Notes: generated by a model from the sequence alone, not told the origin. A stretch of 64,000 nucleotides of DNA from Haloplanus ruber (GCF_024494725.1 NZ_JANHDK010000001.1:1054001-1118000); one strand, 5' to 3'. Counted from the stretch's first letter, positions 6,682-63,916 are shown. Program-made: numbers and translations.

Positions 6682-6699
6682 ACTCATTCGGCGGCCAGA

Positions 6700-6714: not shown

Positions 6715-6839
6715 TCTGTTCATGTATCGGATTAGTTAGGTGTGCCGGTGGTGAACCATGGCCCCGTGGTCGGAGCGGGCGTACTGTCTTGGCGACAGGT
6801 GTGGCGAGCCGTCGGTGGTCGGCCCCGAGCCGACGCCGC

Positions 6840-7517: not shown

Positions 7518-7563
7518 GCCCGTCCGTACGGCAGGGGGCGTCTTGATTCGTTCCCCGCCACCG

Positions 7564-7574
7564 CGACAATTTAA
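7564..7574 (+). promoter_or_regulatory. TATA promoter of the GNAT gene
   Basis: The AT-rich core ACAATTTAAGG is centred about 31 bases before the ATG at 7601, with no Shine-Dalgarno sequence between them. The mRNA should be leaderless or nearly so. Confidence 0.6.
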
Positions 7575-7600
7575 GGGGACCCCCGGTCCACATCACGTAC

Positions 7601-8356: not shown

Positions 8357-8370
8357 CGTCGATCACCCGG

Positions 8371-8391
8371 TTATATCACAAAGTATTATCA
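8371..8391 (+). promoter_or_regulatory. Promoter of the symporter leader/transport operon
   Basis: Two AT-rich cores, TTATATCAC (8371-8379) and AGTATTATC (8382-8390), lie before the symporter. The second is centred 28 bases before the ATG at 8414, so transcription probably begins at that ATG, which opens a 12-codon leader ORF rather than the symporter itself. Confidence 0.6.
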
Positions 8392-8413
8392 GGTCGGCCA
8401 CACAGCCGTGGGT

Positions 8414-8452
8414 ATGCGACGACCGACGCACACGGAGGAATTGCCGTGGTGA
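8414..8452 (+). CDS. Possible 12-residue leader peptide coupled to the symporter
   Basis: ATG at 8414 opens MRRPTHTEELPW and stops with TGA at 8450-8452, which overlaps the GTG start of the symporter as GTGA. The ATG is at the distance from the TATA core expected for a leaderless start. A GGAGG (8434-8438) inside the leader is correctly placed to reinitiate at the symporter GTG. The peptide has no recognisable function; its role would be translational coupling or attenuation. It could be coincidental, since short ORFs occur by chance. Confidence 0.4.
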   Translation: MRRPTHTEELPW

Positions 8453-9945: not shown

Positions 9946-10055
9946 CCATCTCCGCGCTCGGCTTCGCGGTCCTGATCTGGGGGTCGCTGGCGCTGGTCGC
10001 CGGCGTCTTTCTGTACGAACTGGCAGCGGTCTGGCGGGAGTACCGCCGGGCGTAA
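9942..10055 (+). CDS. Symporter small accessory membrane protein (37 residues)
   Basis: The GTG start overlaps the symporter stop by four bases (GTGA). The product has one transmembrane helix (about residues 4-25, FAVLIWGSLALVAGVFLYEL) followed by a basic tail, REYRRA. Tiny single-span partners encoded directly after SSS or NSS transporters are known in bacteria and archaea (MetS-like, or annotated symporter small accessory protein). Overlap, membrane topology and position-specific basic tail make it likely to be a real subunit that stabilises or regulates the transporter. Confidence 0.7.
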   Translation: MTISALGFAVLIWGSLALVAGVFLYELAAVWREYRRA

Positions 10056-10116
10056 CGCGCGGCAGCCGGCCGTCGCCGACGACGGTCGGTGGTCCGCGGA
10101 TAGACCGGAGAGTGCC

Positions 10117-12111
<1,995 letters not shown>

Positions 12112-12141
12112 ATGTCAAGATAGAATTTCCAATCATTCGTG

Positions 12142-12151
12142 ATAAATTTAC
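12142..12151 (-). promoter_or_regulatory. TATA promoter of acs
   Basis: On the reverse strand the core TAAATTTATC lies 31-40 bases before the acs ATG at 12111. The whole stretch 12112-12150 is unusually AT-rich for this genome. Only a very short 5' leader would remain. Confidence 0.6.
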
Positions 12152-12263
12152 GCCATGGCGTCCGGTGATGCCCCGACTCGCCGGCTACTGGGCCGGTAGG
12201 AAGTTCGAAACAGCGCAGATTGGCCGCCGTACGGCCGGTATTGCGGGAACCCGAACTATTCAG

Positions 12264-12274
12264 AAGGCTTTTGA
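12264..12274 (+). promoter_or_regulatory. TATA-like promoter of korAB
   Basis: AAGGCTTTTGA is centred about 33 bases before the ATG at 12302. The GGCTTTT form recurs before other starts in this window (for example 39540, 48915, 63454) at the same spacing, which supports it as a core element. Confidence 0.5.
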
Positions 12275-12301
12275 CCGATCCGGCGATACGTCCCACATAA
12301 C

Positions 12302-14074
12302 ATGCCTGCGGACTTCAACTGGGCAATCGGTGGAGAAGCCGGCGACGGCATCAACTCTACCGGGAAAATCTTCGCCCAGGCGCTTTCGAGGGCCGGTCGG
12401 CACGTGTTCACCTCCAAGGACTTCGCGTCTCGCATTCGGGGCGGGTACACGGCGTACAAGGTCCGCACGTCGGTAGATCAGGTACAGAGCGTCGTCGACC
12501 GCCTCGATGTGCTCATCGCACTCACGCAACGGACAATCGACGAGAACATCGACGAACTCCACGAGGGCAGCGTCATCATCTACGACGGGGACCGAACGAC
12601 GATGGAGGGTGTCGAGATTCCCGACGAGATGATCGGCTTGGACGTCCCGTTGCAGGCGCTCGCCGAGGAGGCCGGCGGCGCCATCATGCGGAACGTCGTT
12701 GCGCTCGGGGCCGCGTGTGCGGTGGGCGAATTCCCCATCGCGAACCTCGACAGCGCCCTCGAAAAGCGGTTCGGCGACAAGGGGGCCGCCATCGTCGAGA
12801 ACAACAAGAACGCCGCCCGAAAGGGGAAAGAGTACGTCCACGACAACTACGACGAGGAGTTCGGATTCGAACTGGAGTGTACCGACGAGAACTACGTCCT
12901 TCTGAACGGGGACGAGGCCATCGGGATGGGCGCTATCGCCGCTGGCTGTCGATTCTACGCCGGCTACCCCATCACACCCGCGACGGACGTGATGGAGTAC
13001 CTCACGGGACGGATCGAACAGTACGGCGGCCACGTCGTCCAGGCCGAGGACGAACTCTCGGCGATCAACATGGCGCTCGGTGCCGCCCGCGCCGGCGCCC
13101 GGTCGATGACCGCCACCTCCGGTCCCGGAATCGACCTCATGGCCGAGACGTTCGGTCTGGTCGCCACCAGCGAGACGCCGCTGGTCATCTGTAACGTGAT
13201 GCGCTCGGGACCCTCGACCGGGATGCCCACCAAACAGGAGCAGGGCGACCTGAACGCGATGCTCTACGGCGGGCACGGCGAGGTGCCGCGGTTCGTCCTC
13301 GCGCCAACGACCGTCGCCGAGTGCTTCCACAAGACCGTCGAGGCGTTCAACCTCGCGGAGAAGTACCAACTACCCGTCTACCTGACCGCCGACCTCTCGC
13401 TTGCGGTCACCGAACAGACCTACCCGCCCGAGGAGTTCGACATGGACGCCGTCGACATCGAGCGTGGCAAGGTCGTCGACGAGGAGACGGTTGGCGAGTG
13501 GCAGGACGAGTCGGGGCGGTTCAAGCCCCACGCCCTCACCGACGACGGGATCAGCCCCCGTGCGTTCCCGGGGACCGAGGGTGGTGTCCACATGTCCACC
13601 GGCCTCGAACACGACGAACTCGGGCGCCGAACCGAGGAAACCGACATGCGCGTCCAGCAGGTCGACAAGCGGACCCGAAAAGTCCAGACGGCCAGAGAGC
13701 GCGAACCGTTCGAGCCACGCGAGTTCGGCGACGCCGACGCGGACACACTCGTCGTCTCGTGGGGGTCGAACGAGGGGGCGCTGATCGAGGCAAAGTCCTT
13801 CCTCGACGAGGAGGGAATCGACGCCCGCTATCTCTCGGTGCCCTACATCTTCCCGCGGCCGGACCTGACCGAGGCCGTCGAGGCGGCCGAGGAGACCATC
13901 GTCGTCGAGTGTAACGCGACAGGACAGTTCGCGGATCTGGTCGAACACGACACGCTGACGCGGGTGACCCGCATCAACAAGTACGACGGCGTCCGCTTCA
14001 AGGCGGACGAACTCGCCGAGCGAATCGCGGACGTGCTGGCGACCGACGAGGGAGCCGAGGAGGCCACCGCATGA
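12302..14074 (+). CDS. korA: 2-oxoacid:ferredoxin oxidoreductase, alpha subunit (gamma-alpha fusion)
   Basis: 590 residues. The N-terminal 190 form the gamma domain, beginning with GGEAGDGINSTGK. From about residue 200 comes the alpha (pyrimidine-binding) domain with the YPITPAT motif at 222-228. The complex oxidatively decarboxylates 2-oxoglutarate or pyruvate to the acyl-CoA and reduces ferredoxin; Halobacteria use it instead of the dehydrogenase multienzyme complexes. Which 2-oxoacid is preferred cannot be decided from sequence. Its stop overlaps the korB start as ATGA. Confidence 0.94.
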   Translation: MPADFNWAIGGEAGDGINSTGKIFAQALSRAGRHVFTSKDFASRIRGGYTAYKVRTSVDQVQSVVDRLDVLIALTQRTIDENIDELHEGSVIIYDGDRTTMEGVEIPDEMIGLDVPLQALAEEAGGAIMRNVVALGAACAVGEFPIANLDSALEKRFGDKGAAIVENNKNAARKGKEYVHDNYDEEFGFELECTDENYVLLNGDEAIGMGAIAAGCRFYAGYPITPATDVMEYLTGRIEQYGGHVVQAEDELSAINMALGAARAGARSMTATSGPGIDLMAETFGLVATSETPLVICNVMRSGPSTGMPTKQEQGDLNAMLYGGHGEVPRFVLAPTTVAECFHKTVEAFNLAEKYQLPVYLTADLSLAVTEQTYPPEEFDMDAVDIERGKVVDEETVGEWQDESGRFKPHALTDDGISPRAFPGTEGGVHMSTGLEHDELGRRTEETDMRVQQVDKRTRKVQTAREREPFEPREFGDADADTLVVSWGSNEGALIEAKSFLDEEGIDARYLSVPYIFPRPDLTEAVEAAEETIVVECNATGQFADLVEHDTLTRVTRINKYDGVRFKADELAERIADVLATDEGAEEATA

Positions 14075-14934
14075 GTTCCAACGTTCGATTCACCGACTTC
14101 AAATCCGACGCACAGCCCACCTGGTGTCCCGGATGCGGCGACTTCGGGACCATGAACGGCATGATGAAGGCACTGGCCGAAACCGGCAACAGTCCCGACG
14201 AGACGTTCATCGTCGCCGGCATCGGCTGTTCCGGTAAGATCGGGACGTACATGCGATCCTACGCCATCCACGGCGTCCACGGCCGAGCGCTCCCGGTCGG
14301 CGCCGGCGCCAAACTCGCCAACCCCGACATCGAGGTGATGGTCGCGGGCGGCGACGGCGACGGCTACTCCATCGGCGCTGGGCACTTCATCCACGCCGTC
14401 CGCCGCAACGTCGACATGACCTACGTCGTCATGGACAACCGCATCTACGGACTCACCAAGGGGCAGGCCTCGCCGACCAGCCGCGAGGACTTCGAGACGT
14501 CGACGACCCCCGAGGGTCCCCAGCAACCCCCGGTTAATCCGCTTGCGCTCGCGCTCGCTGCCAGCGGCACCTTCATCGCCCAGTCGTTCTCGACGGACGC
14601 CCAGCGCCACGCGGAAATCGTCAAGCAGGCCGTCGAACACGACGGCTTCGGCTTCGTCAACGTGTTCTCACCCTGCGTGACGTTCAACGACGTGGACACG
14701 TACGACTACTTCCGGGATCACATCGTCGACCTCGACGATACCGATCACGATCCGACGAGCTACGAGGACGCTCGCTCGCGCATCCTCGATCCGGGCAAGG
14801 AGTACCAGGGCGTCTTCTACCGGGACGAGGACTCCGCGCCCTACGAGCGGAGCCACGGTGTCGACGCCGATATGTCAGACATCCCCGACGGCGCACCCGA
14901 GGACGCGATGGACCTCGTCCGCGAGTTCTACTGA
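14071..14934 (+). CDS. korB: 2-oxoacid:ferredoxin oxidoreductase, beta subunit
   Basis: 287 residues. It binds thiamine diphosphate: GDGDG at 94-98 with the terminal Asn at about 123 (VMDNRIYGLTKGQ) forms the TPP motif. Cys19, Cys22 (WCPGCGDFG) and Cys53 (GIGCSGK) are ligands of the single [4Fe-4S] cluster in two-subunit enzymes. No ferredoxin-like delta domain is fused or encoded nearby, as expected for the haloarchaeal alpha2beta2 type. Overlaps korA by four bases. Confidence 0.95.
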   Translation: MSSNVRFTDFKSDAQPTWCPGCGDFGTMNGMMKALAETGNSPDETFIVAGIGCSGKIGTYMRSYAIHGVHGRALPVGAGAKLANPDIEVMVAGGDGDGYSIGAGHFIHAVRRNVDMTYVVMDNRIYGLTKGQASPTSREDFETSTTPEGPQQPPVNPLALALAASGTFIAQSFSTDAQRHAEIVKQAVEHDGFGFVNVFSPCVTFNDVDTYDYFRDHIVDLDDTDHDPTSYEDARSRILDPGKEYQGVFYRDEDSAPYERSHGVDADMSDIPDGAPEDAMDLVREFY

Positions 14935-50145: not shown

Positions 50146-50817
50146 ATGCCGAACGGGGACCGGGGGGTCGACGAGGACAAACGAACTACGCTGCGCCGCT
50201 TCGCCGCGCTGGGTGCGGCGACGCCGCTTGCCGGGTTCGGGAGCGGCGAGGCGGCCGCACGCTCGACGGACGACAGCTCCGACGTTCGCGGCGCAATCCT
50301 CGGGTACGTGAACACGACTCCCGGGGCACACTTCTCGAAGCTCCGTGACGACCTGCAGTTGGGGACAGGCGAGACACAGCACCACCTGCGCCGACTGCTC
50401 GACGGCGGGGAGGACACACACGAGACGGCCGGCCGTCGGTCCACGGAGGCCACCATCGTCTCACGGCGCGACGGCGACTACCGCCGCTTTTTCATCGCCG
50501 ACCGCTTCTCGACGTTCGAACAGGTGGCGCTCGGCTACCTTCGCCGGGAGACACCGCGGGGGATGTTGCTGACGCTGCTTCGCCACCCTGGCGCGACCGG
50601 AAGTGCGGTGGCCGATGCTGTCGGGGTGTCGCGGGCGACGGTGAGCACGTACGCCTCGGAACTCGCGGAGGCGGGACTGCTCGCCCGAGACGACGGCTAC
50701 GTCGTCGCACGCCCGGAGACGATCATCACGCTCTTGGTGCGGTACGCGGACTCCTTCGACGACGAGGTGCGCGCGTTCGCCGCCGAGGCCGACGACCTGC
50801 TCCGATACGATCCCTAA
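50146..50817 (+). CDS. Winged-helix regulator with a signal-peptide-like N-terminus
   Basis: 223 residues. Residues 12-39 (RTTLRRFAALGAATPLAG then FGSGEAAARS) resemble a weak Tat signal. Two winged helix-turn-helix units follow: about 48-110 (GYVNTTPGAHFSKLRDDLQL) and 128-200 (VADAVGVSRATVSTYASELAE, with recognition helix). The double wHTH is common in haloarchaeal regulators; export of such a DNA-binding protein would be odd, so the N-terminus may instead anchor it to the membrane or be misread. It converges on the DUF7123 gene, overlapping by four bases. Confidence 0.75.
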   Translation: MPNGDRGVDEDKRTTLRRFAALGAATPLAGFGSGEAAARSTDDSSDVRGAILGYVNTTPGAHFSKLRDDLQLGTGETQHHLRRLLDGGEDTHETAGRRSTEATIVSRRDGDYRRFFIADRFSTFEQVALGYLRRETPRGMLLTLLRHPGATGSAVADAVGVSRATVSTYASELAEAGLLARDDGYVVARPETIITLLVRYADSFDDEVRAFAAEADDLLRYDP

Positions 50818-51268: not shown

Positions 51269-51281
51269 AGGTTCTTATTGG
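51269..51281 (+). promoter_or_regulatory. TATA promoter of the phosphatase-superfamily gene
   Basis: AGGTTCTTATTGG, centred 27 bases before ATG 51302. Confidence 0.55.
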
Positions 51282-51301
51282 TGTCCCGGATATGCGATGG
51301 T

Positions 51302-52654
51302 ATGGGTCTGTTCGATAGACTGCGGGGAGAGGATCACCCGCGTGTCGCGTTCATCGGCATCGACGGGGTGCCGTTTAGCCTCCTCGAGGACCACCCCGAG
51401 GAGTTTCCCAACTTCGCGTCGCTCGCATCGGAGGGCAGCGCGGGCGCCATCGACAGCATCGTTCCGCCGGAGTCGAGCGCCTGTTGGCCGGCGCTCACGA
51501 CCGGCGTCAATCCCGGTGAGACGGGAGTGTACGGCTTTCAGGACCGCGAAGCTGGCTCCTACGACACCTACGTCCCCATGGGACAGGACGTCCAAGCGCC
51601 GCGCATCTGGGACCGACTGGAGGAAAACGACCGGACCGCGACGGTGATGAACGTCCCGGTTACGTTCCCCCCACAGCGAAACGTCACGCGGATGGTGTCG
51701 GGGTTCCTCTCGCCCGGCGTCGACAAGGCGGCCCACCCGGACGGACTCCGGGACTACCTGCAGTCTATCGACTACGCCATCGACGTGAACGCCAAACTCG
51801 GACACAAAGAGGACAAAAGCGAGTTCGTCGAGGACGCCCACGACACCATCGACACGCGCTTCGAGGCGTTCTCCAACTACCTCGAAGACGACGACTGGGA
51901 CCTGTTTTTCGGCGTCTTCATGACCACCGACCGGGTCAATCATTTCCTGTTCAAGGATTACGAGCGCGACGGCCCGAACAAGGAGGCGTTCATGGACTTC
52001 TACCGGAAGGTCGACGACTACATCGGCCGGATTCGCGACAGCCTGGACGACAACGTGACACTCGTCGTCGCCAGCGACCACGGCTTCACCTCCCTCGATT
52101 ACGAGGTACACTGCAACGCGTGGCTCCAGGAAGAGGGCTGGCTCTCCTTCGAGGACGATGACCACGACGACCTGACGGATATCGCCGAGGAGTCGCGGGC
52201 GTACTCGCTCATCCCCGGTCGCTTCTACATCAACCTCGAAGGCCGGGAGCCACGGGGTTCGGTCCCTCAAGAGGAGTACGAGTCGACCCGCGACGAACTG
52301 AAGGCGGCACTAGAGAGTCTAGAAGGGCCGGACGGCAACCCGGTGTGTGAACGCGTCGTCGAGAAGGAGGACGCCTTCCGCGGCGAACACGACGATATCG
52401 CGCCTGATCTCGTTGCCATCCCCAGCCACGGGTTCGACCTCAAATCCGGGTTCAAGGGTCACGACGAGGTGTTCGACGTCGGGCCGCGGAACGGGATGCA
52501 CAGTTTCGACAACGCGACGCTGTTCGTCGACGACCCCTCGGCATCGGTGACGGACGCCGACCTGTTCGATATCGCGCCGACCATCCTTGATCTGATGGAC
52601 GTCGACTACGGCCGCACCGACTTCGACGGTGGCAGCCTCGTCACGTCGAAGTGA
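51302..52654 (+). CDS. Alkaline-phosphatase-superfamily hydrolase (nucleotide pyrophosphatase/PDE-like)
   Basis: 450 residues, no signal peptide. Metal ligands are visible: Asp21 (IGIDGVP), the nucleophile region PPESSACWPALTTG (54-67), DRVNHFLF, and ASDHGF, plus MHSF near 405. In relatives the nucleophile is usually Thr in PPxTxPAW; here the aligned residue is Ser58. Such enzymes hydrolyse phosphomono- or diesters, or transfer phosphate groups to lipids or glycans. Haloarchaeal copies sit in cytoplasm or near glycosylation genes. Convergent with cetZ. Confidence 0.85.
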   Translation: MGLFDRLRGEDHPRVAFIGIDGVPFSLLEDHPEEFPNFASLASEGSAGAIDSIVPPESSACWPALTTGVNPGETGVYGFQDREAGSYDTYVPMGQDVQAPRIWDRLEENDRTATVMNVPVTFPPQRNVTRMVSGFLSPGVDKAAHPDGLRDYLQSIDYAIDVNAKLGHKEDKSEFVEDAHDTIDTRFEAFSNYLEDDDWDLFFGVFMTTDRVNHFLFKDYERDGPNKEAFMDFYRKVDDYIGRIRDSLDDNVTLVVASDHGFTSLDYEVHCNAWLQEEGWLSFEDDDHDDLTDIAEESRAYSLIPGRFYINLEGREPRGSVPQEEYESTRDELKAALESLEGPDGNPVCERVVEKEDAFRGEHDDIAPDLVAIPSHGFDLKSGFKGHDEVFDVGPRNGMHSFDNATLFVDDPSASVTDADLFDIAPTILDLMDVDYGRTDFDGGSLVTSK

Positions 52655-52655
52655 C

Positions 52656-53732
52656 CTAGAGCAGCCCGTCGATCCGGTCGTCTTCGAGCGCCGAGGCGGC
52701 ATCTTCGTCGTCGTCCCCCGCATCTGCGGCCTGTCGTGCCCGTTCGAGGAAGCCGTCGAGACGGTCGGAGTCGGCCACCCCGCCGAGCAAGACGAGCGCC
52801 GCGAGGCGGTCGCCCGAGAGGGGGAAGTCGCCGCCCCGAACCTCCATCGTATCGAGTTCGGTCTCCAGCCAGGAGCGGGCGCGCTCGACGCCCTTCCGAG
52901 AGATGGTCTCGGGCCGGCCGGCGACGACTAATAGTCCGCGTTCGGCGCTGGTCGTATCGGGGAGGCTCAGCCCCGACCGCATCGCCCGACGGGTGGTACT
53001 CGTGACGACGTTCACGTTCGCCGCCGCCTCGGACGACGACTCCGCGGCGGCGTAGCCGAGCGTAGCGACGCCCGTCCCGCGGAGGGTGTTGATGACCTCG
53101 GAGCTGTCGACGACGGACTCACCGACGCCGTCGACCGCCTCGCCGGCCGCGAGCAACAGGCCGACACGGCGGGCGATGCGCTCGTTGATCGCCTCGTATC
53201 CGGATTCCAGGCTCTCGCCTGCCGACCGCCAGGCGTCGTTGTCGACCAAGAGCGTCGCGTCGGCCTCCCGGCTCAGTGTCTTCAGCGACCGCCCGGCGTT
53301 CGCCTGGTAGAGCGCTCCCTCATCTCGCCCGGGAAGGATGCCGAGGCCGTAGACCGGCACGTCGTAGATTCGCTGGAGTTCCTTGACGAGATACGGTGCG
53401 CCCCCACTCCCGGTCCCACCGCCGAGGCCGGCGACGACGAACACCGCCTCGGCCCGGGCGGTCACCCGCCCGTCGATGGCGCCGAGTACCTCCTGTACGT
53501 CGTCCCGCATCACCTTCGTGCCGAGTTCGTTGTCGCCGCCGACCCCGTGTCCGTTCACCTCGGCCCCGCCGATCAGGACCGTATCGAGAGGGAGGGACTG
53601 CAGGTCGGAGCGGGCGCTGTTGACCGCGAGGGAACCGATGACCGCGCCAAAGCCGTTTCGCGCGTCGAAATCGGACAGGGCGTCGACGACCTTACCGCCG
53701 GCCTGTCCGACACCAATCAGGACGGACTTCAT
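52656..53732 (-). CDS. CetZ-family tubulin/FtsZ homologue
   Basis: 358 residues from ATG 53732. MKSVLIGVGQAGGKVVDALS and GHGVGGDNELG are CetZ-specific nucleotide loops, and the tubulin signature GLGGGTGSGGAP is at 103-114, followed by YGLGILPGRDEGALY. CetZ proteins shape cells and support motility rather than divide them. Its acidic C-terminal tail (about 335-358) is short. It is divergent from the pilus-like operon across a 131-base gap with a promoter for each side. Confidence 0.92.
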   Translation of the reverse strand: MKSVLIGVGQAGGKVVDALSDFDARNGFGAVIGSLAVNSARSDLQSLPLDTVLIGGAEVNGHGVGGDNELGTKVMRDDVQEVLGAIDGRVTARAEAVFVVAGLGGGTGSGGAPYLVKELQRIYDVPVYGLGILPGRDEGALYQANAGRSLKTLSREADATLLVDNDAWRSAGESLESGYEAINERIARRVGLLLAAGEAVDGVGESVVDSSEVINTLRGTGVATLGYAAAESSSEAAANVNVVTSTTRRAMRSGLSLPDTTSAERGLLVVAGRPETISRKGVERARSWLETELDTMEVRGGDFPLSGDRLAALVLLGGVADSDRLDGFLERARQAADAGDDDEDAASALEDDRIDGLL

Positions 53733-53863: not shown

Positions 53864-54574
53864 ATGAGCGACACCTTGGAGCAACGTGTCGACGCGCTGG
53901 AACGGGCGCTCACCGACGGACGAACGGCCGACGTGGATGGTCTCTCCGAAGCGGCCGAACTGGCGGAACGGCTCGACGAACTCGAAGCCACCGTCGAGAC
54001 GATAGACGACCGGGTGGCCGAACTGGAGGCGGGTGTGCAGGCCCTCCGCGGGTTCGTCGGCGGCGTCGACGCCGTCGACGAGGCGGTCGAACGGCGGGCG
54101 AACGCCGCTATCGCCCGGGTCGAACGACTCGAAACCGAAGTCCGCGAAGGGAGGGCCGAAGCAGGAACACTCCAGCCTGACCCGGGGCGGGGTGACGACG
54201 ACACCAGCAGCTCGAAGCGAGACGAGAGCGCCGCTGACGGCCGTATGCGGCGAGACGACGGCCGACCGGCCGCGAACCGCGCGCCCACCGACGCCGCACG
54301 GAGCGTCGGCCACGAACACGGTGGTCGCACCGCGCCCGCCGACGGAGAAGTCGACGCCGGCCGGAACGACCGGAACCCCCACGACTCGACCGGCGTGGGA
54401 CGGCACGCGGGAGCAAACGAGCCACCCGTCTCGACGCTCGCCGCAGCGGCGGCCGACACCGCCCGGACGGAGTTGGCGTCGGAGCCGGCAGTGTCCGACG
54501 AGGAGCGTGAGCCAGCGGGTGGAGCGACCGAGGCGGACACGACACTCGCCGAACGGGTCCGTCGGCTCCTGTGA
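53864..54574 (+). CDS. Coiled-coil protein, first gene of the pilus-like operon (DUF7310 type)
   Basis: 236 residues. Residues 1-105 form a coiled coil (LEQRVDALERALTDGR... AELAERLDELEATVETIDDRV). About 110-225 is a disordered Arg/Asp/Gly-rich linker, with a final LAERVRRLL helix. No membrane span. It probably acts as a cytoplasmic assembly factor. Its stop overlaps the next start as GTGA, linking it to the machine genes. Confidence 0.75.
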   Translation: MSDTLEQRVDALERALTDGRTADVDGLSEAAELAERLDELEATVETIDDRVAELEAGVQALRGFVGGVDAVDEAVERRANAAIARVERLETEVREGRAEAGTLQPDPGRGDDDTSSSKRDESAADGRMRRDDGRPAANRAPTDAARSVGHEHGGRTAPADGEVDAGRNDRNPHDSTGVGRHAGANEPPVSTLAAAAADTARTELASEPAVSDEEREPAGGATEADTTLAERVRRLL

Positions 54575-55005
54575 TCCGGACGGTCCTCGCGGTCCTGCTG
54601 TCGGTCGCCTTGCTCGCCGCCGTCGCCCCAGGAATCGACGAAGGGCGCCGGTCGCGAACGGCGACCCACCTCGACGACGCGACCGACCGCATCGAACGGG
54701 CGGCCCACTCGCTGCGTGCGCACGAGGATCCCACGCGTCCGGGGGTGACCGGGGCACGGCGCGTCGTTCGGGTTCGTGTTCCGGCCACGTCTTGGAGCGC
54801 CGCGGGGGCGACCCTGCGAATCGAAGGGGAGGGCGACCGGATCGGCTACCGACTCGACGGCCGGCCGCCCCACTGGACCACACTCCGGGGCCTCGACCTC
54901 CGGACGCCTGCGGGACCGGTCGCCCTCGAACGCCCGGGAGAGCACCGACTCGTCGTCTCGCTGGTCCGTGACCGGGGCGTCGGCGTCGTGATCGCCCGCG
55001 ACTGA
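54571..55005 (+). CDS. Small exported/anchored protein (DUF7311 type)
   Basis: 144 residues. One N-terminal hydrophobic helix (about 2-20, IRTVLAVLLSVALLAAVAPG) followed by a beta-rich extracytoplasmic domain of about 110 residues (VVRVRVPATSW... TLRIEGEGDRIGYRLDG). It is probably a membrane-anchored minor component. GTG start overlaps the coiled-coil gene stop. Confidence 0.72.
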   Translation: MIRTVLAVLLSVALLAAVAPGIDEGRRSRTATHLDDATDRIERAAHSLRAHEDPTRPGVTGARRVVRVRVPATSWSAAGATLRIEGEGDRIGYRLDGRPPHWTTLRGLDLRTPAGPVALERPGEHRLVVSLVRDRGVGVVIARD

Positions 55006-55044
55006 GGTCGAGATTCAAGGGTGATCGGGGGACCACGGCGTCGC

Positions 55045-56955
55045 ATGCGCCTACTGGATCGGTTACGGGACGGGGGCGATAGCGAGGCCAGCGGCGAGTG
55101 TGGCTGTGAGCCGACGGTGCGGTCGCCACGCGGGAACGACCCCGACCGACGCGGCACGCTCGTCGTCACGGCCGACAGTTGCCCCGCCAGCGGCGACCTA
55201 ATCGCGAACCCGGACTGTCGGGCGACGGTGATCGACGCGCTCGGCGGTACCGGCGTCGACGTCATCCACGTCAGAGCGGACGGCCGCGAACGGGTGTACG
55301 ACGATGGAGCGGTCGGGTTGCTCGTCGCGGCGGGCCGGTTTGCCGTCCGGGTCGCCGTTCACGACGAGCGACTGGCGGACCTGGCGCGCCGCGACCCGCT
55401 CGAGGCCGCCCGGACCGCGACCGGTCGCGCGGGACCCGTATCGACGCTGGCCGCGAGCACCGGCCTGGCTGCCGGCGCCGACCGGGTCGACGGATACGAG
55501 GCGGCGCTTGGAGCACGGACGGGGCCAACAGTCGCCGACGCGCGTCTGGATCGGCGTCCACCCCGCGACGCGAAACTGGTCGCCCGTCGCGAACTCGACA
55601 CCGGCGCAACGGTGCGACGATATCGGACGGGGACGGACGAGCGCTACCTGCTCGATCCGCCAGGGTGGCGGCTGGACGACGCGGAGCTAGCCACCCTCGC
55701 CGACGCGCACGACCGACTGGCCGAGACGACCGCCGAGGACGGCGGACGAGCGATTACCCGCGCCGTTCGGACGGCAACACCCGACGACGAGTCGGTGGCA
55801 GTGGCGACAGTCGAGCGCGTCCTCCGGCGTCACACACGCGGGCACGGCGTCTTCGAGGATCTGTTCGCCGATCCGCGGGTGTCCGAGGTCCTGGTGACGG
55901 CGCCGGTCACGGACAATCCGGTTCGCGTCGCCGTCGACGGCAAGCGGGTATCGACGAACGTCCACCTGACCCGACGGGGGGCCGCGGCGCTGGCCTCCCG
56001 GTTCCGGCGGGAGAGCGGGCGCGCCTTCTCGCGGGCGGCGCCGACCCTCGACGCGGCGACGCGCACCCGGAACGGCCAGGTCCGGGTGGCCGGGGTCGCC
56101 GATCCGGCGAGCGACGGCTACGCTTTCGTCTTTCGCACCGGCGACCGGACGGCGTGGACGCTCCCGGCGCTTGTCGCCAACGGGACGCTTCCGGCCGACG
56201 CCGCGGCGCTTTGCTCTGTCGCCGTTGAGCGTGCCGGCGCGGGGCTGATCGCTGGACCGCGGGGTGCCGGGAAGACGACGCTCCTCTCGGCGCTGCTGTG
56301 GGAACTTCCGCCGGCGACGCGAACCGTTGTCGTCGAGGACACGCCTGAACTCCCCGCGGCCCGCCTCCAGTCCGCTGGCCGTGACGTCCAGTCCGTGCGC
56401 ATCGAGACCGGCGATGGACCTGCACTCTCGCCGACGGCGGCGCTCCGAACCGCGCTCCGCCTCGGTGAGGGGGCGCTGGTCGTCGGGGAGGTGCGGGGTG
56501 AGGAGGCGGCGACGCTCTACGAGGCGATGCGCGTCGGGGCTGCGAGTAGTGCCGTCCTCGGAACGATCCACGGCGACGGCGCCGACGCGGTGTTCGAGCG
56601 GGTGGTGACCGACCTCGGCGTCCCCGCGTCCTCCTTCGCGGCGACGGACTTCCTCGTCACGCTCTCGACTGGCGAGAGACGCACCGTGGCGAGCGTCGAG
56701 GAGGTGCGCGACGCCGGGGACGGCGTCGCGTTCGAGCCGCTGTTCGAGCCTGCAACGGACGGTGCCGAGGCGACAGGGGTTATCGACCGCGGAAACAGCC
56801 GGCTCGTCGCGTCGCTGGCTCGACCGGGCGAGTCCTACGCCGACGTTCTCGACGTCCTCGACGACCGAGCCTCGCTACTTGCCGACCTCGCGAGGACGGA
56901 CCGAACCGACCCGGCGGCCGTCGACGCGGCCCACCGCGAGCGGGTGGGCGAATGA
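55045..56955 (+). CDS. Type IV pilus/secretion-type ATPase (PilB/TadA/ArlI-like)
   Basis: About 636 residues from ATG 55045 (GTG 55021 is possible). The N-terminal 250 residues are family-specific, with paired cysteines (GECGCEP, SCPAS, PDCRA). The RecA-like core has Walker A GPRGAGKTT at about 404-412, Asp box VVVEDTPELP, and Walker B with Glu in LVVGEVRGEE at about 479-488. It hydrolyses ATP at the inner face of the membrane to drive pilus or secretion assembly. It overlaps the platform gene (ATGA). Confidence 0.9.
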   Translation: MRLLDRLRDGGDSEASGECGCEPTVRSPRGNDPDRRGTLVVTADSCPASGDLIANPDCRATVIDALGGTGVDVIHVRADGRERVYDDGAVGLLVAAGRFAVRVAVHDERLADLARRDPLEAARTATGRAGPVSTLAASTGLAAGADRVDGYEAALGARTGPTVADARLDRRPPRDAKLVARRELDTGATVRRYRTGTDERYLLDPPGWRLDDAELATLADAHDRLAETTAEDGGRAITRAVRTATPDDESVAVATVERVLRRHTRGHGVFEDLFADPRVSEVLVTAPVTDNPVRVAVDGKRVSTNVHLTRRGAAALASRFRRESGRAFSRAAPTLDAATRTRNGQVRVAGVADPASDGYAFVFRTGDRTAWTLPALVANGTLPADAAALCSVAVERAGAGLIAGPRGAGKTTLLSALLWELPPATRTVVVEDTPELPAARLQSAGRDVQSVRIETGDGPALSPTAALRTALRLGEGALVVGEVRGEEAATLYEAMRVGAASSAVLGTIHGDGADAVFERVVTDLGVPASSFAATDFLVTLSTGERRTVASVEEVRDAGDGVAFEPLFEPATDGAEATGVIDRGNSRLVASLARPGESYADVLDVLDDRASLLADLARTDRTDPAAVDAAHRERVGE

Positions 56956-58679
56956 TCGACTACGCAACCGTCGTCGAGACGCTCGCGAGGCGGTGGCCGT
57001 GGCCCACGCCCGGCGACCCAACTCTCGACGGGGCGCTCGCGTATCTCCGTGTCCCGGTCGGCGCCTCGACGCTCGAGCGTGCGTCCCGAGTCGCCGGGAC
57101 ACTCGTCTGTGTCGTCGGCGCAGTCCTCGGGGCGCTGGTGGGCGTCGCGACGACGCCCAGGTGGGGCGTCGTCGTCACGGGAACCGGACTCGCCGTCGGT
57201 ATCGGGGTCCCCCTCGCCGCGAACCGCGGTCCCCGACTGGCGGCACGCCTGGCGCGGACGCGGGCGCTCGGATCGACCGCGGCGCTCGTCGGCCGAGCGG
57301 CGATGTGTTTACGGCTCGATCCGACGCTGGAACGGGCGGCCGCGTTCGCCGCACGGACGGGACGGGGAGTGCTCGCCCGAAGCCTCGACGGTCACGTGAC
57401 GCGGGCCACGGGCACCCCAGAGAGTGGCTTGGACGGCTTTGCCGACGAGTGGGGCGAGCGCTTTCCGGCGCTCAAGCGTGCGGTCTCACGACTCGGGGCC
57501 GCGGCGACGGCGCCGCCCGACGAACGGGAACGACACCTCGACCGCGCCGTATCGGCGGCACTCGACGGTGCCAGAGACGAGTTGGCTGCGTTCACGAGCG
57601 AGATTCGCGGCCCGGTCACGGGACTGTACGCCTTCGGCGTCCTCCTGCCGCTGGCGCTGGTGGGCGTCCTGCCGGCGGCGCGAGCGACGGGTGTACGGCT
57701 CTCGCTGACCGCCGTCGTCGCTCTGTATAACGCCGTTCTCCCGGCTGTCGTGGTCGGATCGGGGGCGTGGCTACTCGCCCGCCGACCGGTCGCCTTCCCA
57801 CCGCCGCGGATCGACTCGACACACCCCGAGACGCCGGATAGCCCCCTCCCCGCGCTCGCGGCGGGCGCCGTCACCGGCGTGGGCGGCGGCCTCGCCGCCG
57901 CACGGGTGGTCGCGCCGTGGGCGGTGCCAATCGCTGGGATCGGTCTCGGGGTCGGCACGGTGCTCGTGGTTCGCTTTCACGCGGCCAACGCGGTTAGAAC
58001 GCGGGTGCGAGCGGTCGAGGCCAATCTCGACGACGCGCTGTATCTGATCGGCCGACGGGTGGCGGCCGGGGAAGCCGTCGAGTCGGCGCTCGACGCGGCC
58101 GCCGGACGGGTCGAGGGCGCGACCGGTGACTTCCTCGGCGACGCGGTGGGTCGCCAGCGGCGACTCGGACTCACCGTGACAGCGGCGTTTCGTGGTGACG
58201 GCGGGCCGTCGAACGCTCTGCCGAGCCGTCGGACCGAGGAGATGGTGACCCTCATTGGTCTTGCGGCGACCGAGGGTGAGCCGGCCGGCGACGCGCTGGT
58301 CGCGACCGCCGAACACGTCGAGGAGCTGAGACGGGTCGAACGGACGGCACGACGGGAACTATCGCAGGTGACCGACACGCTCGCCAACACCGCGGCTGTC
58401 TTCGGTCCGCTGGTCGGCGGCGCAACGGTCGCGCTGTCGGCCCGCGTCGCACACACCGGAACGAGCGCCGGATTCGGTGCTGCACCCCTTCCGACCGGTG
58501 CTCTGGGTGTCGCGGTGGGAGCGTACGTGCTCTGGCTCGCGGCTGCGCTCACGACCCTCGCGACCGGGCTGACGTACGGACTCGACCGCACACTCGTCGG
58601 CTATCGCGTCGGCGTGGCGCTCTGTCTCGCGACCGTCGCCTACCTCGCGGCGTACGTCGGGGCCGGTGTCTTCCTGTGA
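56952..58679 (+). CDS. Type II/IV secretion platform protein (PilC/TadC/ArlJ-like)
   Basis: 575 residues with about eight membrane spans. Two T2SF-like cytoplasmic helical regions: about 95-215 (GLDGFADEWGERFPALKRAV) and 345-475 (EANLDDALYLIGRRVAAGEAVESAL ... RTARRELSQVTDTLANTAAV). This double-T2SF layout is the archaeal form. It anchors the ATPase and is thought to transmit its movement to the pilin subunits. Confidence 0.9.
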   Translation: MIDYATVVETLARRWPWPTPGDPTLDGALAYLRVPVGASTLERASRVAGTLVCVVGAVLGALVGVATTPRWGVVVTGTGLAVGIGVPLAANRGPRLAARLARTRALGSTAALVGRAAMCLRLDPTLERAAAFAARTGRGVLARSLDGHVTRATGTPESGLDGFADEWGERFPALKRAVSRLGAAATAPPDERERHLDRAVSAALDGARDELAAFTSEIRGPVTGLYAFGVLLPLALVGVLPAARATGVRLSLTAVVALYNAVLPAVVVGSGAWLLARRPVAFPPPRIDSTHPETPDSPLPALAAGAVTGVGGGLAAARVVAPWAVPIAGIGLGVGTVLVVRFHAANAVRTRVRAVEANLDDALYLIGRRVAAGEAVESALDAAAGRVEGATGDFLGDAVGRQRRLGLTVTAAFRGDGGPSNALPSRRTEEMVTLIGLAATEGEPAGDALVATAEHVEELRRVERTARRELSQVTDTLANTAAVFGPLVGGATVALSARVAHTGTSAGFGAAPLPTGALGVAVGAYVLWLAAALTTLATGLTYGLDRTLVGYRVGVALCLATVAYLAAYVGAGVFL

Positions 58680-58713
58680 AGACTCAAGTAGGGTGACGGG
58701 ACCACCCCGTTCC

Positions 58714-59181
58714 ATGTTCGACGTTTCGGTCGACGCGTGGTACACCTGGCTCGGAGTGTCGCTCGCGAGCGTCGCGCTGTTCGGCGTCGGCGCGTCGTTG
58801 CCGACGGCCCCACCGCCGGCCGCGGCCGACGCCGCCGACACGGTCGACCGGGCGGCTGGGTCGGCCGGCCCCGTCACGGCGGAACATCCGCTCGGGGCGC
58901 GGGCGGTTCGGGTCGCGCCGCGCCGACTCGGCCTCCGGAACGACGCCGGCACCACCCACGCGACGTTCGCGTTCGGGCCGGTGACGCCAGCCGTCCGAAG
59001 CGGGCCACTTGGCGACGTCCTCCGAGGAGCCCCGCCGTCGTCACGCTTCGAGTCACCAGCGGCGCTCTGTGACGCCGCGGAGAGCGCACGCAATCGGCCT
59101 CCACAGTGGCGGCCGGCCGACGGGTCGTTACTCGTCAGACGCGTCATCTGGGAGGGGTGTGATGTCACGCTCGTCGGGTAG
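58714..59181 (+). CDS. Membrane-anchored operon protein (DUF7283 type)
   Basis: 155 residues from ATG 58714. One N-terminal helix (about 9-28) with the polar side MFDVSVDAWYTW before it, then a soluble domain with Arg-rich and Thr-rich stretches. It has no classical prepilin cleavage motif, so it is more likely a pseudopilin-like or structural partner. It overlaps the next gene by 20 bases. Confidence 0.7.
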   Translation: MFDVSVDAWYTWLGVSLASVALFGVGASLPTAPPPAAADAADTVDRAAGSAGPVTAEHPLGARAVRVAPRRLGLRNDAGTTHATFAFGPVTPAVRSGPLGDVLRGAPPSSRFESPAALCDAAESARNRPPQWRPADGSLLVRRVIWEGCDVTLVG

Positions 59182-59560
59182 GGGGCAGGTCGAACCGACC
59201 GCCGCCCTCGTGGTCCTGCTGGCGGTGTCGAGCGCCGTCTCGGCCTACGCCGTCGCGCTCAACGGTGTGGGTGCCGAACACCAGGCTGACCGAGCGCTGG
59301 CCGGCCCGACTCTCGACCGTGTCACTAGTGTTCTCGTGACCGGAGGGGTCGCCGCCCCGACACGAACGGAACGCGCCCACCGCACCGGTCCCGACGGCTA
59401 TCGGCTGAACGTGACCGTCGCCGCGGCCGGCCGGCGGTGGTACGCGGGTGCGACCCCGCCACGGGGAGCGACGACGGACGCGGCGGGTCGTGCCATGAGC
59501 GTCCGTCTGGCTCCGGGGCGGGTCCGACCCGGTCGCGTCCGCGTGGAGGTGTGGTCGTGA
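59162..59560 (+). CDS. Class-III-signal (pilin-like) protein (DUF7285 type)
   Basis: 132 residues. The N-terminus MSRSSGRGQVEPTAALVVLL has Arg-Gly-Gln followed by a hydrophobic helix (VVLLAVSSAVSAYAVAL), fitting a PibD-type prepilin site cut after RG with a Glu at +3. The remaining 95 residues are beta-like. This is the best candidate for the major or a minor pilin of the system. The start overlaps the previous gene; the stop overlaps the next (GTGA). Confidence 0.78.
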   Translation: MSRSSGRGQVEPTAALVVLLAVSSAVSAYAVALNGVGAEHQADRALAGPTLDRVTSVLVTGGVAAPTRTERAHRTGPDGYRLNVTVAAAGRRWYAGATPPRGATTDAAGRAMSVRLAPGRVRPGRVRVEVWS

Positions 59561-60405
59561 CGAGCACCATCCTCGACGGCGTGTTCTGCCTGCTGTTGGT
59601 CAGCGCCGCGGTGGTGACGGTGACGACGGCGACGCCGCGAGAGCCAGTCGGTGAGGGGCGTGCACCGGACGTGGCCTCAACGGTGGCGACGACGACGGCG
59701 GCGGTGAACTACACGCTCGCGCCACGGTTCGACCGGACTCCCGTCGAGGGACCAGAGAGCGACGCCTTCGCCCGGACGGCCCACGGGACGCTAGCCGAAC
59801 TCCTGGCGCGGGCGACAGTGGGGGAGTTGACGGTGGGCGGCCAGCCGCTGTCCCGCGACCACGCGGGGCTCTCTCGAGCCGTCGTCCGCGCCGTCGAGGG
59901 GGCGGTCCGGACCAATCACACGCGGATCACCGCAGTCTGGCGGCCGTACCCGAACGCGTCGGTGACCGGGCGGATCACCGTCGGGGGTCGCCCTCCGCCG
60001 GACGTGCCGGTCCACACGGCGACGCTCACGGTTTCGAGCGGCTTCCCCACGACACGAATCGACGCACGGCGGGCCGGGGCGACGAACGGCATCGCGGGTG
60101 TCGCCGACGCCGTTGCGGCCGGTATCGTCGAGGGGCTGTTCCCGCCGACCCGGACCCGTTTGGCGGCCGGGGAGCGGGCGTCGTCGCTCGTCCGGCACCG
60201 GTATCGGCTCGCAGAGCGTCGGTTCGGCGTCGACGGACACACGACTCTGTCCGACGGCGACGTCGACGCCGCGAACGACCGACTTGCCGCCGCGCTCTCG
60301 GATCGGGTGGCCCGGGACCTCCGCGGCGCGAACGTGTCCGCGTCGACGGCCGCCGAGCGCGTCGGCGTCGGGCGTGTACGAATCGTCGTGAGGACGTGGC
60401 CGTGA
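59557..60405 (+). CDS. Exported operon protein (DUF7284 type)
   Basis: 282 residues. One N-terminal hydrophobic segment (about 5-25, ILDGVFCLLLVSAAVVTVTT) then a large Thr/Val-rich extracytoplasmic domain with several Asn-x-Ser/Thr sites (for example NYTL, NHTR, NASV) that could be N-glycosylated. No cleavage motif is obvious, so it may stay anchored. Both ends overlap neighbours by four bases. Confidence 0.72.
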   Translation: MTSTILDGVFCLLLVSAAVVTVTTATPREPVGEGRAPDVASTVATTTAAVNYTLAPRFDRTPVEGPESDAFARTAHGTLAELLARATVGELTVGGQPLSRDHAGLSRAVVRAVEGAVRTNHTRITAVWRPYPNASVTGRITVGGRPPPDVPVHTATLTVSSGFPTTRIDARRAGATNGIAGVADAVAAGIVEGLFPPTRTRLAAGERASSLVRHRYRLAERRFGVDGHTTLSDGDVDAANDRLAAALSDRVARDLRGANVSASTAAERVGVGRVRIVVRTWP

Positions 60406-63400
60406 CCCGACTGGCCGAGGATCGGCGGGCGCGGATCCCGTTTGCCCTGCTTGGCGTCCTGCTGCTGGTCGGTGCATCGACGTACGCCGCGACGATCAGC
60501 ACGCAGGGTCCGAGTCGCGTCGACCGCGGGGCTGCGGCGGCGATGGAGCGTGTATCGGCCGGATCGACGGCAGCCCTGCGCTCGGCGGTCGGGGAGGCGG
60601 CGCGAGCGGCCGCGGCCGAGCCGGTCACCGAGCCAGCCGCGACGCCGTTCGGACGCGTACTGAGCGACCGAGACCCGTTCCGCGACGCACTCCGGCTTCG
60701 GATCTATCTTCGCCTCCGCGAGCGATTGGAGACGACCCGCTATCGCCGGGGATCGGTGACGGCTGTCGCGTCGGTTCCCGAAGCAACGACACCGACGGGG
60801 GTTCGGCGGGCGCTGGATCGGGTGCGGGTAACCGGCGTTGAGAACGGAACGGCCCTCCGGGTGACGGTGCGGAACCTGACGGTGATGGTTCGTGACGGGG
60901 AGCGCGTCGTCGCCCAGGAGAACCGGTCTCGAACCGTCACCGTCTCGACGCCCGTGCTCGCGCTCCACGACCGCGCGTCGGCGTTCGAGACGCGGCTAAA
61001 CCGCCGTCCACTGGCGGGTCCGGGGCTGGGGCGACGGCTGACTGCCCGACTCTACCCGGTCGCCTGGGCACGGGGATACGCGCAGTATAGCGGGTTGCCC
61101 GTCGCCAACGTCGTCGGGACCAGACACGTCGAGACGGCGACGAACGGGGCGCTGCTCGAAACCCAGCGAGCGGTGTTCGGGCGGAGCGACCCGGCCGGCC
61201 GCCAGGCGATGCGTCGAGCGACACTGGAGCTCGGCGTGGACGACCTGACGGCGGCGTCGTCGGTAGACGGGGAGTGGGCGAAAGGCGTCGTTCCGCGTCC
61301 AAACCGACGCGTGAACGCGTCGACGCCGCTCCCGCCGCGCCGTGGGATGTCGCCGGACCGCCGGTTCGACGTCGAGGTGGCCCCACTGGCTGACCGCGCA
61401 CTGACGGGGTTGCGGACGGAGTCGATCCGGTCGAACCGGTCACTCGCCGACGCGCTCCGCGCCGCCTATCGCGTCGAGGCGGCGCTACGGACGACCCGGA
61501 AGCGACTCGACTCCGAGCCGCGACCGGACCCCGAGCCGCCAGGCCCGGAGTGGTTCCTGACGGAGACGCGTGTCGCGACCGATCATGAGGTGGAATCGAG
61601 CGTCGGGACAGCCCCTCAGGCGAGGGACGGCGAACGGCGGTTCGGCTCGTTCGCTCGGCACGTGACCCTCAACCGTCGAATCAAGTGGGTCTGGCGGCGC
61701 GATAACGATACGCGAGTCACGACCGGCGAGTGGACCGAACGCTATCGGGTCGGCGTGACCGTCGTGGGGTCGTACGCGCCGAACGGCTCGGCCCCTGCCC
61801 GCCCGACGGCGCCGCGGTTCGAGCGGGGCGGACCGCTCGACGGTCCGAACCTCGCCGACGTGCCCCGGAAGGCGCGAGAGCGGCTACTCGACCGACAGGG
61901 CGGGCGGAACGCCGTGGCGGCGGCCGTCGCCAATGAGAGTCTCGACACGACCGAAGCAACAGTGTACGGTGATCGGCCGTCCGATCTTCGGTCGTGGGCG
62001 TACGCCGATCTGAGGGGGGTCGCGGCGCGACTCGGCAACCGATCTGTCGAGGTTCGGGCGGGGGCAGTCGCGACCTACGGAGTCAACCCGCCGGGAAGCC
62101 TGTCGACCACCCTCCGCAAACGGCAGGCGACGCTCGTCGACCCGCCCGAACGGTACCAGGGCGTGGCGGATCGGGCGCGCGTCAACGCACGGGTCGCGTT
62201 GCTCAACGCGACGATAGCTCGGCTAGATCGCCGCGCGAAGGCACACGAACGGACGAAAGAGGCGTTTGGCGACGTCCTCGGTCGAGTTGGCGTCGAATCT
62301 CCCCAGACACTCGGGCAGATCTTCGAGGCGCGCAACACGCCGATCACGGCTCCGCAGGGTCGGCTCGCGGGTCGGCCGCCCGGCGGCCCCGTCGGCGTCG
62401 TCCCCGACGGCTCGCCAGCCTACCTCACCGTCGAGTCGGTGAGTCACGACCGGGCGCATGCCGTGGCGCCGTCGCGCTCGTATCGCCCGCTGGCGACGAA
62501 GAACGTCAACCTGTTCGTGGCGCCGTACGGGGACGCGGCGGACGTGGTGTCGGCGCCGGCGACCGACGGTGTCTCGCGGGTTCGGCTACGGACCGCCGCA
62601 CGGGTGCTCGTGGCGGCCGAACCGGTTGCGAACGACTCGGTTCGCGAGCAACGGCGCGCCCTCTCGCGGGCCGTCGCGTCGTCGGTCGGTCGGGTGCGGG
62701 CGCGGACACGCCGTGCCGTCCAGAACGAGACGCGACTCACGCGACCGGAGGCTGCGGCGGCAGTCGCGGCCGGCTTCGACCGGTGGGAGGGGCCCGGACG
62801 GCGGGCGCTCGCCGCGACCAACGGCTCGCTCGCCGCGGCGATAGCCGTCGCCGCGGGTCGCCGGGATGAGGCCCCACGGTCGGATCGCGTCGGTCGACTG
62901 GAGCGGCGACTCGACGCCGCCATCGCCGAGAGTCTACGTCACGACGCGACGACTGTCGCGGAGACGGTGGTGGCGCGGACACTGACGCGGGTGCGGGACC
63001 GGGCACTGGCACGGGCGAGCGAGGCGGCGACGGACCGACTCGCCCGTGGCCGTCTGAACGAGACGCTCGGTGTGGTGCCAGCCGGGTTTCCGGTCGCCCC
63101 CGTCCCGGGGTACTGGTACGCGACGGTCAACGTCTGGGCGGTGCAGGTCCGGGGCGCCTACGCGCGGTTCACGCTCCGAACCCAACGCGGCGCGCCGACA
63201 CCCGGGGGTGCGATCCGGTATGTGCGCGACGGCTCGACGGTTCGGGTGGACGTCGACGGCGACGGACGAGCCGAGCGTCTCGGCCGCGACGAACGGATCG
63301 ACTTCCGGACGCGGACGGTCGTCGCCGTCGCGGTTCCACCCGGTCGGAGCGGCGTGGGCGACGTCAACGGCAACGCCGACGAGCGAGGGGGGAGTTGGCC

Positions 63401-63452
63401 GGAGCCTGGATGTACGTCTTGGGCAGTCGAGGACTGTCCCGCCGCGGAGTGA
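60402..63452 (+). CDS. Giant exported protein of the pilus-like operon (DUF7286 type)
   Basis: About 1016 residues from the GTG at 60402 that overlaps the preceding stop (GTG 60396 is the alternative). RARIPFALLGVLLLVGASTY (about 9-28) is the only membrane helix. The rest is extracytoplasmic: alternating helical Arg/Ala-rich and beta Val/Thr-rich stretches with many Asn-x-Thr/Ser sequons (GNRSVEV, LNATIA, ANDSV), and a Cys pair near the end (EPGCTSWAVEDC). No known domain recognised. It could be a tip adhesin, tape-measure or exoskeletal subunit. Confidence 0.75.
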   Translation: MTRLAEDRRARIPFALLGVLLLVGASTYAATISTQGPSRVDRGAAAAMERVSAGSTAALRSAVGEAARAAAAEPVTEPAATPFGRVLSDRDPFRDALRLRIYLRLRERLETTRYRRGSVTAVASVPEATTPTGVRRALDRVRVTGVENGTALRVTVRNLTVMVRDGERVVAQENRSRTVTVSTPVLALHDRASAFETRLNRRPLAGPGLGRRLTARLYPVAWARGYAQYSGLPVANVVGTRHVETATNGALLETQRAVFGRSDPAGRQAMRRATLELGVDDLTAASSVDGEWAKGVVPRPNRRVNASTPLPPRRGMSPDRRFDVEVAPLADRALTGLRTESIRSNRSLADALRAAYRVEAALRTTRKRLDSEPRPDPEPPGPEWFLTETRVATDHEVESSVGTAPQARDGERRFGSFARHVTLNRRIKWVWRRDNDTRVTTGEWTERYRVGVTVVGSYAPNGSAPARPTAPRFERGGPLDGPNLADVPRKARERLLDRQGGRNAVAAAVANESLDTTEATVYGDRPSDLRSWAYADLRGVAARLGNRSVEVRAGAVATYGVNPPGSLSTTLRKRQATLVDPPERYQGVADRARVNARVALLNATIARLDRRAKAHERTKEAFGDVLGRVGVESPQTLGQIFEARNTPITAPQGRLAGRPPGGPVGVVPDGSPAYLTVESVSHDRAHAVAPSRSYRPLATKNVNLFVAPYGDAADVVSAPATDGVSRVRLRTAARVLVAAEPVANDSVREQRRALSRAVASSVGRVRARTRRAVQNETRLTRPEAAAAVAAGFDRWEGPGRRALAATNGSLAAAIAVAAGRRDEAPRSDRVGRLERRLDAAIAESLRHDATTVAETVVARTLTRVRDRALARASEAATDRLARGRLNETLGVVPAGFPVAPVPGYWYATVNVWAVQVRGAYARFTLRTQRGAPTPGGAIRYVRDGSTVRVDVDGDGRAERLGRDERIDFRTRTVVAVAVPPGRSGVGDVNGNADERGGSWPEPGCTSWAVEDCPAAE

Positions 63453-63484: not shown

Positions 63485-63916
63485 ATGCTCCACGAAGCGG
63501 TCGACGAACCGGAGACGCTGTCCCCCCAACAACTTCGCGACGCCTACGACGCCGAACTCCGTGCCGTGATCGATGCACAAGGAATCGAACGGGTCGCCAC
63601 GGCGGCGGACCTCCCGGCCGAAACGGTCGCTGCGCTCGCTGGCGGGGAGTCCCCGTCGGTGACGCTGTCGGAAGCCGCGGCGGTTCTCGCGGCCGACTCC
63701 GAGGGCCGAGACGCGAACGCCATCGTACAGGAGGTCCGTGACTACCTGCTGATGGGAATGACGACTGGCGTCCTCGATGTCGACACCATCGCCTCGAACG
63801 TCGACCTTGACCTCTCTGGGCAGGAGATCCAACAGGCCATCGAGGGGCGGATTCGGCTGACACTCGACGAACTCGCATCGATCCACCGCTACGTGGCGGA
63901 GCGGTCGTCCCCCTAA
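63485..63916 (+). CDS. DUF5791 family protein
   Basis: 143 residues from ATG 63485. MLHEAVDEPETLSPQQLRDAYDAEL leads a helical, acidic protein with IERVATAADLPAETVAALAGG, an HTH-like helix pair, and a second helical half (DYLLMGMTTGVLDVDTIASN). Haloarchaeal family of unknown function; its helix-turn-helix-like segment suggests nucleic-acid or protein binding. No signal or membrane span. Confidence 0.75.
   Translation: MLHEAVDEPETLSPQQLRDAYDAELRAVIDAQGIERVATAADLPAETVAALAGGESPSVTLSEAAAVLAADSEGRDANAIVQEVRDYLLMGMTTGVLDVDTIASNVDLDLSGQEIQQAIEGRIRLTLDELASIHRYVAERSSP

Follow-up and report, generated by a model that had tools for sequence, protein, structure and literature searches.

Eight genes lying on one strand at 53864-63452 of a 64,000-nucleotide stretch of Haloplanus ruber DNA (GCF_024494725.1 NZ_JANHDK010000001.1:1054001-1118000; this whole stretch is called the window) encode, as judged from their sequences, the archaeal type IV pilus system PilB2/C2, with features that fit subclade 4F. 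An initial annotation of the window had seen here a complete and probably active pilus-like machine of unknown function, a description that is upheld and that can now be set apart from the archaellum and from the genome's other pilus ATPases. The observation is sound; the novelty that it implied is not, since the locus is a member of an already catalogued type of archaeal type IV pilus. (The pilB2/pilC2 locus beside cetZ2 is known from earlier surveys. What is new here is a genome-wide link to the pilin family DUF7382, evidence from profiles that four exported families are homologous to methanogen proteins, deletion scars, and an unusual structural model of DUF7286.) The explanation that covers the locus as a whole, to which we assign a probability of about 0.65, is that PilB2/C2 is a pilus machine whose shaft would be made of DUF7382 and whose priming and tip complex would be made of the operon's exported proteins. 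It is favored by the conserved gene order, the separate clade of the ATPase, the presence of DUF7286 in every genome that has the ATPase, and the co-occurrence of DUF7382; also by the location of DUF7382 and an A24 prepilin peptidase at a Methanocella-like ATPase/platform locus, the class III motif of DUF7285, and the finding that the pil-2 genes of Halobacterium share a transcript whose level is higher in adherent cells.

Each of the eight genes has an intact open reading frame. Seven of the proteins match a Pfam family above its curated cut-off; the exception, the platform protein (gene 4), is identified by its conserved place beside the ATPase. Six of the seven gene junctions had been counted as overlapping, but with the conserved start codons of the ATPase (ATG 55045) and of DUF7283 (ATG 58714) the number is five; the starts in Table 1 are the best supported. 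The Walker A (GPRGAGKT), Asp box (VVVEDTPE) and Walker B (LVVGEVRGEE) motifs of the ATPase are intact, as initially annotated, and so is its His box (GTIHG). An N-terminal CxC..C..C motif is found in 108 of 110 orthologous ATPases.

The 3.28 Mb H. ruber genome (G000) encodes six proteins with a T2SSE ATPase domain. In a tree without the named PilB1-B5 references, the window-type ATPases and their methanogen orthologues form one clade (support 100/100) apart from ArlI and from other PilB clades. The methanogen orthologues score 424-440 bits, compared with 162 bits or less for any paralogue, and the family profile of the platform finds a match next to the ATPase in Halobacteria and methanogens alike (322-335 bits in the latter). 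The initial annotation had proposed such a tree, and had held that placement of the ATPase inside a characterized pilus clade with the same accessory genes would count against it. The ATPase does form its own clade, but one that is already described (4F): by description it comes with the same accessory genes, although its function has not been demonstrated. Membership in the archaellum is ruled out by a score of 59 bits against the ArlI equivalog NF058587 (cut-off 550); the genome's own ArlI is a separate gene (L002) that scores 887 bits. The bindosome ATPase model was likewise rejected (48 bits; cut-off 1000). A tight-adherence-like fiber, which had been suggested, does not fit: the bacterial Tad model TIGR03819 is the top NCBIfam match, yet at 121 as against 373 bits, and profile scans of the operon proteins matched no Tad pilin or TadZ family.

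The ATPase is found in 214 of the 292 Halobacteria genomes sampled, which places the PilB2 system among the most widespread pilus machines of this group. DUF7286 is found in 224, including all 214 that have the ATPase; several of the ten others carry fragments. Mapping of the eight genes across Halobacteria, which the initial annotation had also proposed, showed that, of 109 loci with sufficient upstream sequence, 101 keep the gene order on one strand, which greatly exceeds chance expectation. In 70 of these 101 complete loci, cetZ2 lies divergently within 1.2 kb of gene 1. (That no archaellum, known adhesion-pilus or chemotaxis gene adjoins the operon had been stated; this divergent neighbor had gone unmentioned.) The best solved-structure match of the window's cetZ2 product is 4b45, H. 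volcanii CetZ2, at 485 bits compared with 323 for CetZ1.

Departures from this arrangement bear on a different explanation, according to which the five exported proteins form a surface complex (an S-layer or adhesin assembly, bindosome-like) that the machine puts in place without a long fiber, possibly being able to use another pilus ATPase. Genome G045 (L234, G045:C1:1482000-1500000, 4721-14175) has two tandem cetZ genes followed by DUF7285, DUF7284 and DUF7286, with neither ATPase nor platform at the locus and without an orthologous ATPase, so the exported set may be able to work with another ATPase. In the halobacterial genome G033 the system is split, with cetZ2, ATPase, platform and DUF7283 at one place and DUF7311, DUF7283, DUF7285, DUF7284 and DUF7286 at another, and in methanogens too the exported set and the ATPase lie apart. 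The pairing of DUF7286 with the ATPase in 214 of 214 genomes, with so few occurrences of DUF7286 alone, and the failure of the bindosome model make a fiberless surface complex improbable.

None of the eight genes is an obvious major pilin. A candidate comes from Methanocella-like genomes (two methanogen genomes taken to be Methanocella), in which a pilin-like protein of 157-159 residues with an immunoglobulin-like domain adjoins the ATPase and platform; an A24 prepilin peptidase, a HerA-like ATPase and a DUF7311-like protein are encoded nearby. The halobacterial homologue of this protein is DUF7382, a stand-alone class III pilin that is not linked to the operon (C2:27684-28121 in the H. ruber genome). 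DUF7382 is present in 211 of the 214 Halobacteria genomes with the ATPase and in 11 of the 78 without it; DUF7286, whole or in part, remains in 8 of these 11. Other T2SSE ATPases are still present in ten tested genomes that have neither the ATPase nor DUF7382. Among 14 genera that include both ATPase states, loss is fully joint in 8 (one of which, g35, is a single fragmented genome), DUF7382 is kept in 5, and one is split. DUF7382 is thus likely to be the major pilin of the PilB2 system, and its Methanocella-like place and co-occurrence make it probably the dedicated pilin arCOG02981 of Makarova et al. As a separate observation, a HerA-like ATPase (DUF87) lies beside DUF7382 in 5 of 6 Halobacteria examined (L300, L301, L302, L304, L305) and near the PilB2-type locus in Methanocella-like genomes (L275 10956-12107, L276 4568-5677).

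The exported partners had been regarded as specific to Halobacteria and devoid of recognizable domains. Neither holds: the accessory genes all carry Pfam family names (a literature search by DUF number found no paper), and a set confined to Halobacteria is rejected by homologues outside the class. DUF7286 occurs in 35 of the genomes sampled from the phylum beyond the window's order, and in the Methanosarcina acetivorans control. Profile comparison with two Methanocella-like genomes and one Methanosarcina-like genome gives probabilities of 97% (97.1%) for DUF7311, 97% for DUF7285, 97% for DUF7284 and 100% for DUF7286; for DUF7283 the match is weak (15%) and a counterpart is suggested by position. 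Pfam matches to the methanogen loci exceed the cut-off for DUF7285, DUF7284 and DUF7286. The two Methanocella-like genomes have the exported genes in the window's order with no ATPase or platform between them, these being located elsewhere; in the Methanosarcina-like genome the DUF7286 gene is at the corresponding place but divergent. DUF7311 begins directly at its membrane helix in Halobacteria, whereas its methanogen homologues (L225 8646-9134, L226 8576-9004) have a class III-like leader (DEKG/ADFLGMRLVVVL); the halobacterial form may be a pilin that no longer requires processing. In methanogens DUF7286 is followed by a small protein with a signal peptide-like start and a KAYYNGQE / DVYYNDKLLPG motif (L225 14379-14987, L226 14030-14563, L227 2421-3032). 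This KAYYNGQE-type protein is multi-copy in L229 (15086-18993), and no counterpart was seen in the halobacterial operon.

A class III signal had been assigned to one exported protein. That is correct for DUF7285, but the N-terminus of DUF7286 is also pilin-like. A FlaFind-like class III motif is found in 107 of 119 DUF7285 and 74 of 108 DUF7284 sequences. The N-terminus of DUF7286 is near-invariant in 63 sequences (R[AG]-R-[VI]-PFAL-x-GV-LLLV) and is similar to the PilA pattern in having Pro at +3; Arg at +1 breaks the strict FlaFind motif. The AlphaFold model of DUF7286 is confident (predicted local distance difference test, pLDDT, 84.5; predicted template modeling score, pTM, 0.70), and neither solved structures (PDB) nor viral models yield a match to it at E<=0.001; the pLDDT of DUF7285 is 87.7. 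Weak fold matches of DUF7285 and DUF7286 to levivirus maturation proteins, SecB and ribosomal proteins are regarded as noise. The most economical reading of DUF7286 is that it may be a giant tip pilin. A more tentative proposal, which we consider possible and rather doubtful, would make this giant pilin an archaeal single-protein tip adhesin that has an otherwise unseen fold and no known bacterial counterpart, is positioned on the cell by CetZ2, and caps an ancient halobacterial/methanogen pilus with an unlinked DUF7382 shaft.

The same proteins could be arranged as a type II secretion-like pseudopilus, that is, a short periplasm-like pilus working as a piston, with either DUF7286 or some unlinked protein as its exported cargo or cap. 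Several minor pilin-like genes with one large one resemble the GspHIJK set, and the shaft gene is outside the operon. Yet the locus has no accompanying cargo gene outside its eight genes, it co-occurs with a dedicated pilin of a single domain, and DUF7286 still has an N-terminal membrane helix of its own and a leader region that hardly varies, which makes it ill-suited to be a released cargo. A pseudopilus is accordingly an unlikely arrangement.

The PilB2/C2 pilus with a DUF7382 shaft can be pictured as follows, with its assembly order, the roles of single parts and adhesion being what we infer. The prepilin peptidase PibD would trim the class III leaders, and the PilB2 ATPase would work via the PilC2 platform to raise pilins from the membrane. 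The priming and tip complex would consist of DUF7311, DUF7283, DUF7285, DUF7284 and the giant DUF7286, and DUF7382 would polymerize into the shaft. On the cytoplasmic side DUF7310, which by description fits the halobacterial 4F coiled-coil subunit arCOG07564 (PMC4858521), might serve with CetZ2 in control or positioning. The likely use of such a pilus would be attachment or cell-cell contact. The pairing of the ATPase with DUF7286 and unlinked DUF7382 amounts to a concrete parts list, and its function and the connection between pili and CetZ2 are therefore directly testable in Haloferax.

Several points weigh against this picture. No published phenotype was found for the PilB2 system, and no fiber or secretion experiment. 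The pilB2 transcript is low in published data (PMC4292770), and PilB3, PilB1 and PilB4, but not PilB2, are mentioned in a large survey of the H. volcanii proteome. The p-values for co-occurrence take no account of relatedness among genomes, and a few genomes that lack the ATPase still have DUF7382. The strict FlaFind motif is matched by neither DUF7286 nor DUF7283; a fold search with DUF7285 found no match to a known pilin, and none among solved structures at E<=0.001.

Loss of the operon in some genomes has also left traces. Genome G124 (L235, G124:C1:2358000-2376000, 6030-7920) retains cetZ2 together with gene 1, a fragment of gene 2 and the final 51 codons of DUF7286, and G012 (L236, G012:C1:2147000-2164000, 10392-12318) only cetZ2 and the DUF7286 C-terminus. 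Read from sequence, these remnants are deletion scars, so that absence of the system beside cetZ2 is at least sometimes secondary. In Halobacterium, pilC2 of strain R1 has an in-frame stop and pilB2 of NRC-1 a 10 kb insertion (PMC4292770). The locus might, on such evidence, be considered a decaying and mostly silent passenger of cetZ2, but the window copy is intact in its eight genes and all ATPase motifs, the ATPase is widely retained and gene order is kept across many genera, which makes general decay very improbable.

Table 1. The PilB2/C2 operon of the window and its divergent neighbor
Feature	Coordinates	Strand	Evidence
cetZ2, tubulin-like GTPase, divergent from operon	52656..53732	-	Pfam CetZ_C 213 bits
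Divergent promoter region cetZ2/operon, 131 bp between start codons	53733..53863	.	predicted, from sequence
Gene 1, DUF7310, cytoplasmic coiled-coil protein	53864..54574	+	PF23991 96.5 bits
Gene 2, DUF7311, small protein with N-terminal membrane helix	54571..55005	+	PF23993 142.7 bits
Gene 3, PilB2-type secretion ATPase, Cys-rich N-terminus	55045..56955	+	PF00437 (T2SSE) 67 bits
Gene 4, PilC2-type membrane platform	56952..58679	+	PF00482 (T2SSF) weak, E 0.0087, below cut-off
Gene 5, DUF7283, N-terminal membrane helix, predicted minor pilin	58714..59181	+	PF23954 181.9 bits
Gene 6, DUF7285, class III prepilin (GRG/QVEPTAAL)	59162..59560	+	PF23956 110 bits
Gene 7, DUF7284, pilin-like N-terminus, predicted minor pilin	59557..60405	+	PF23955 290 bits
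Gene 8, DUF7286, 1016 residues, giant pilin-like surface protein, candidate tip	60402..63452	+	PF23957 1155.6 bits

The promoter region is predicted from its position, a sigma-70 scan being unsuitable for archaea. Flanking genes encode a type I phosphodiesterase/nucleotide pyrophosphatase (51278-52654), an HVO_0163-type winged-helix regulator (50146-50817) and a DUF5791 protein (63485-63916).

Because H. volcanii is absent from the 80 named loci, the tie to the published H. volcanii and Halobacterium loci is by descriptions, other Haloferax species and a control-genome match. The H. volcanii PilB3/C3 (PilA pili), PilB1/C1, PilB4 and archaellum systems share the ATPase/platform superfamily and class III signal logic with the window's system; the window ATPase differs in forming its own clade, and ArlI is another gene of the same genome. 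Closer is pil-2 of Halobacterium salinarum (Losensky et al. 2015, PMC4292770), seven co-transcribed genes (6.9 kb transcript) with pilB2 (arCOG01818) and pilC2 at the head and three predicted prepilins, whose transcript is raised, at a low level, in adherent cells. It resembles the window operon in its pilB2/pilC2 pair and predicted prepilins, and differs in the interrupted pilC2 of R1, which is intact in the window. Blastn led to pil-2 being called exclusive to haloarchaea, whereas profile search here finds methanogen homologues.

The pilB2/C2 regulon that adjoins cetZ2 in Haloferacales and Halobacteriales (Brown and Duggin 2023, PMC9856176) has the same place, ATPase/platform pair and nearby predicted phosphodiesterase/nucleotide pyrophosphatase gene. 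Its patchy presence was read there as a mobile element or recent gain; this is insufficient, since at least two absences beside cetZ2, those of G124 and G012, are losses in place. One paper assigns H. volcanii PilB2 to subclade 4C, but the features found here fit 4F (Makarova, Koonin and Albers 2016, PMC4858521), whose description includes an ATPase with a Cys-rich N-terminus, a coiled-coil subunit in the halobacterial form, an FtsZ-family gene as part of its context and a stand-alone major pilin, arCOG02981, placed at a Methanocella locus. No difference was found between 4F and the window's system, in which the TadC/PilC platform adjoins the ATPase and DUF7310 and cetZ2 are in context; the two are alike in Cys-rich ATPase, TadC-like platform, coiled-coil subunit, FtsZ-family gene and presence in Methanocella, and probably in a stand-alone major pilin, for which DUF7382 is the candidate.

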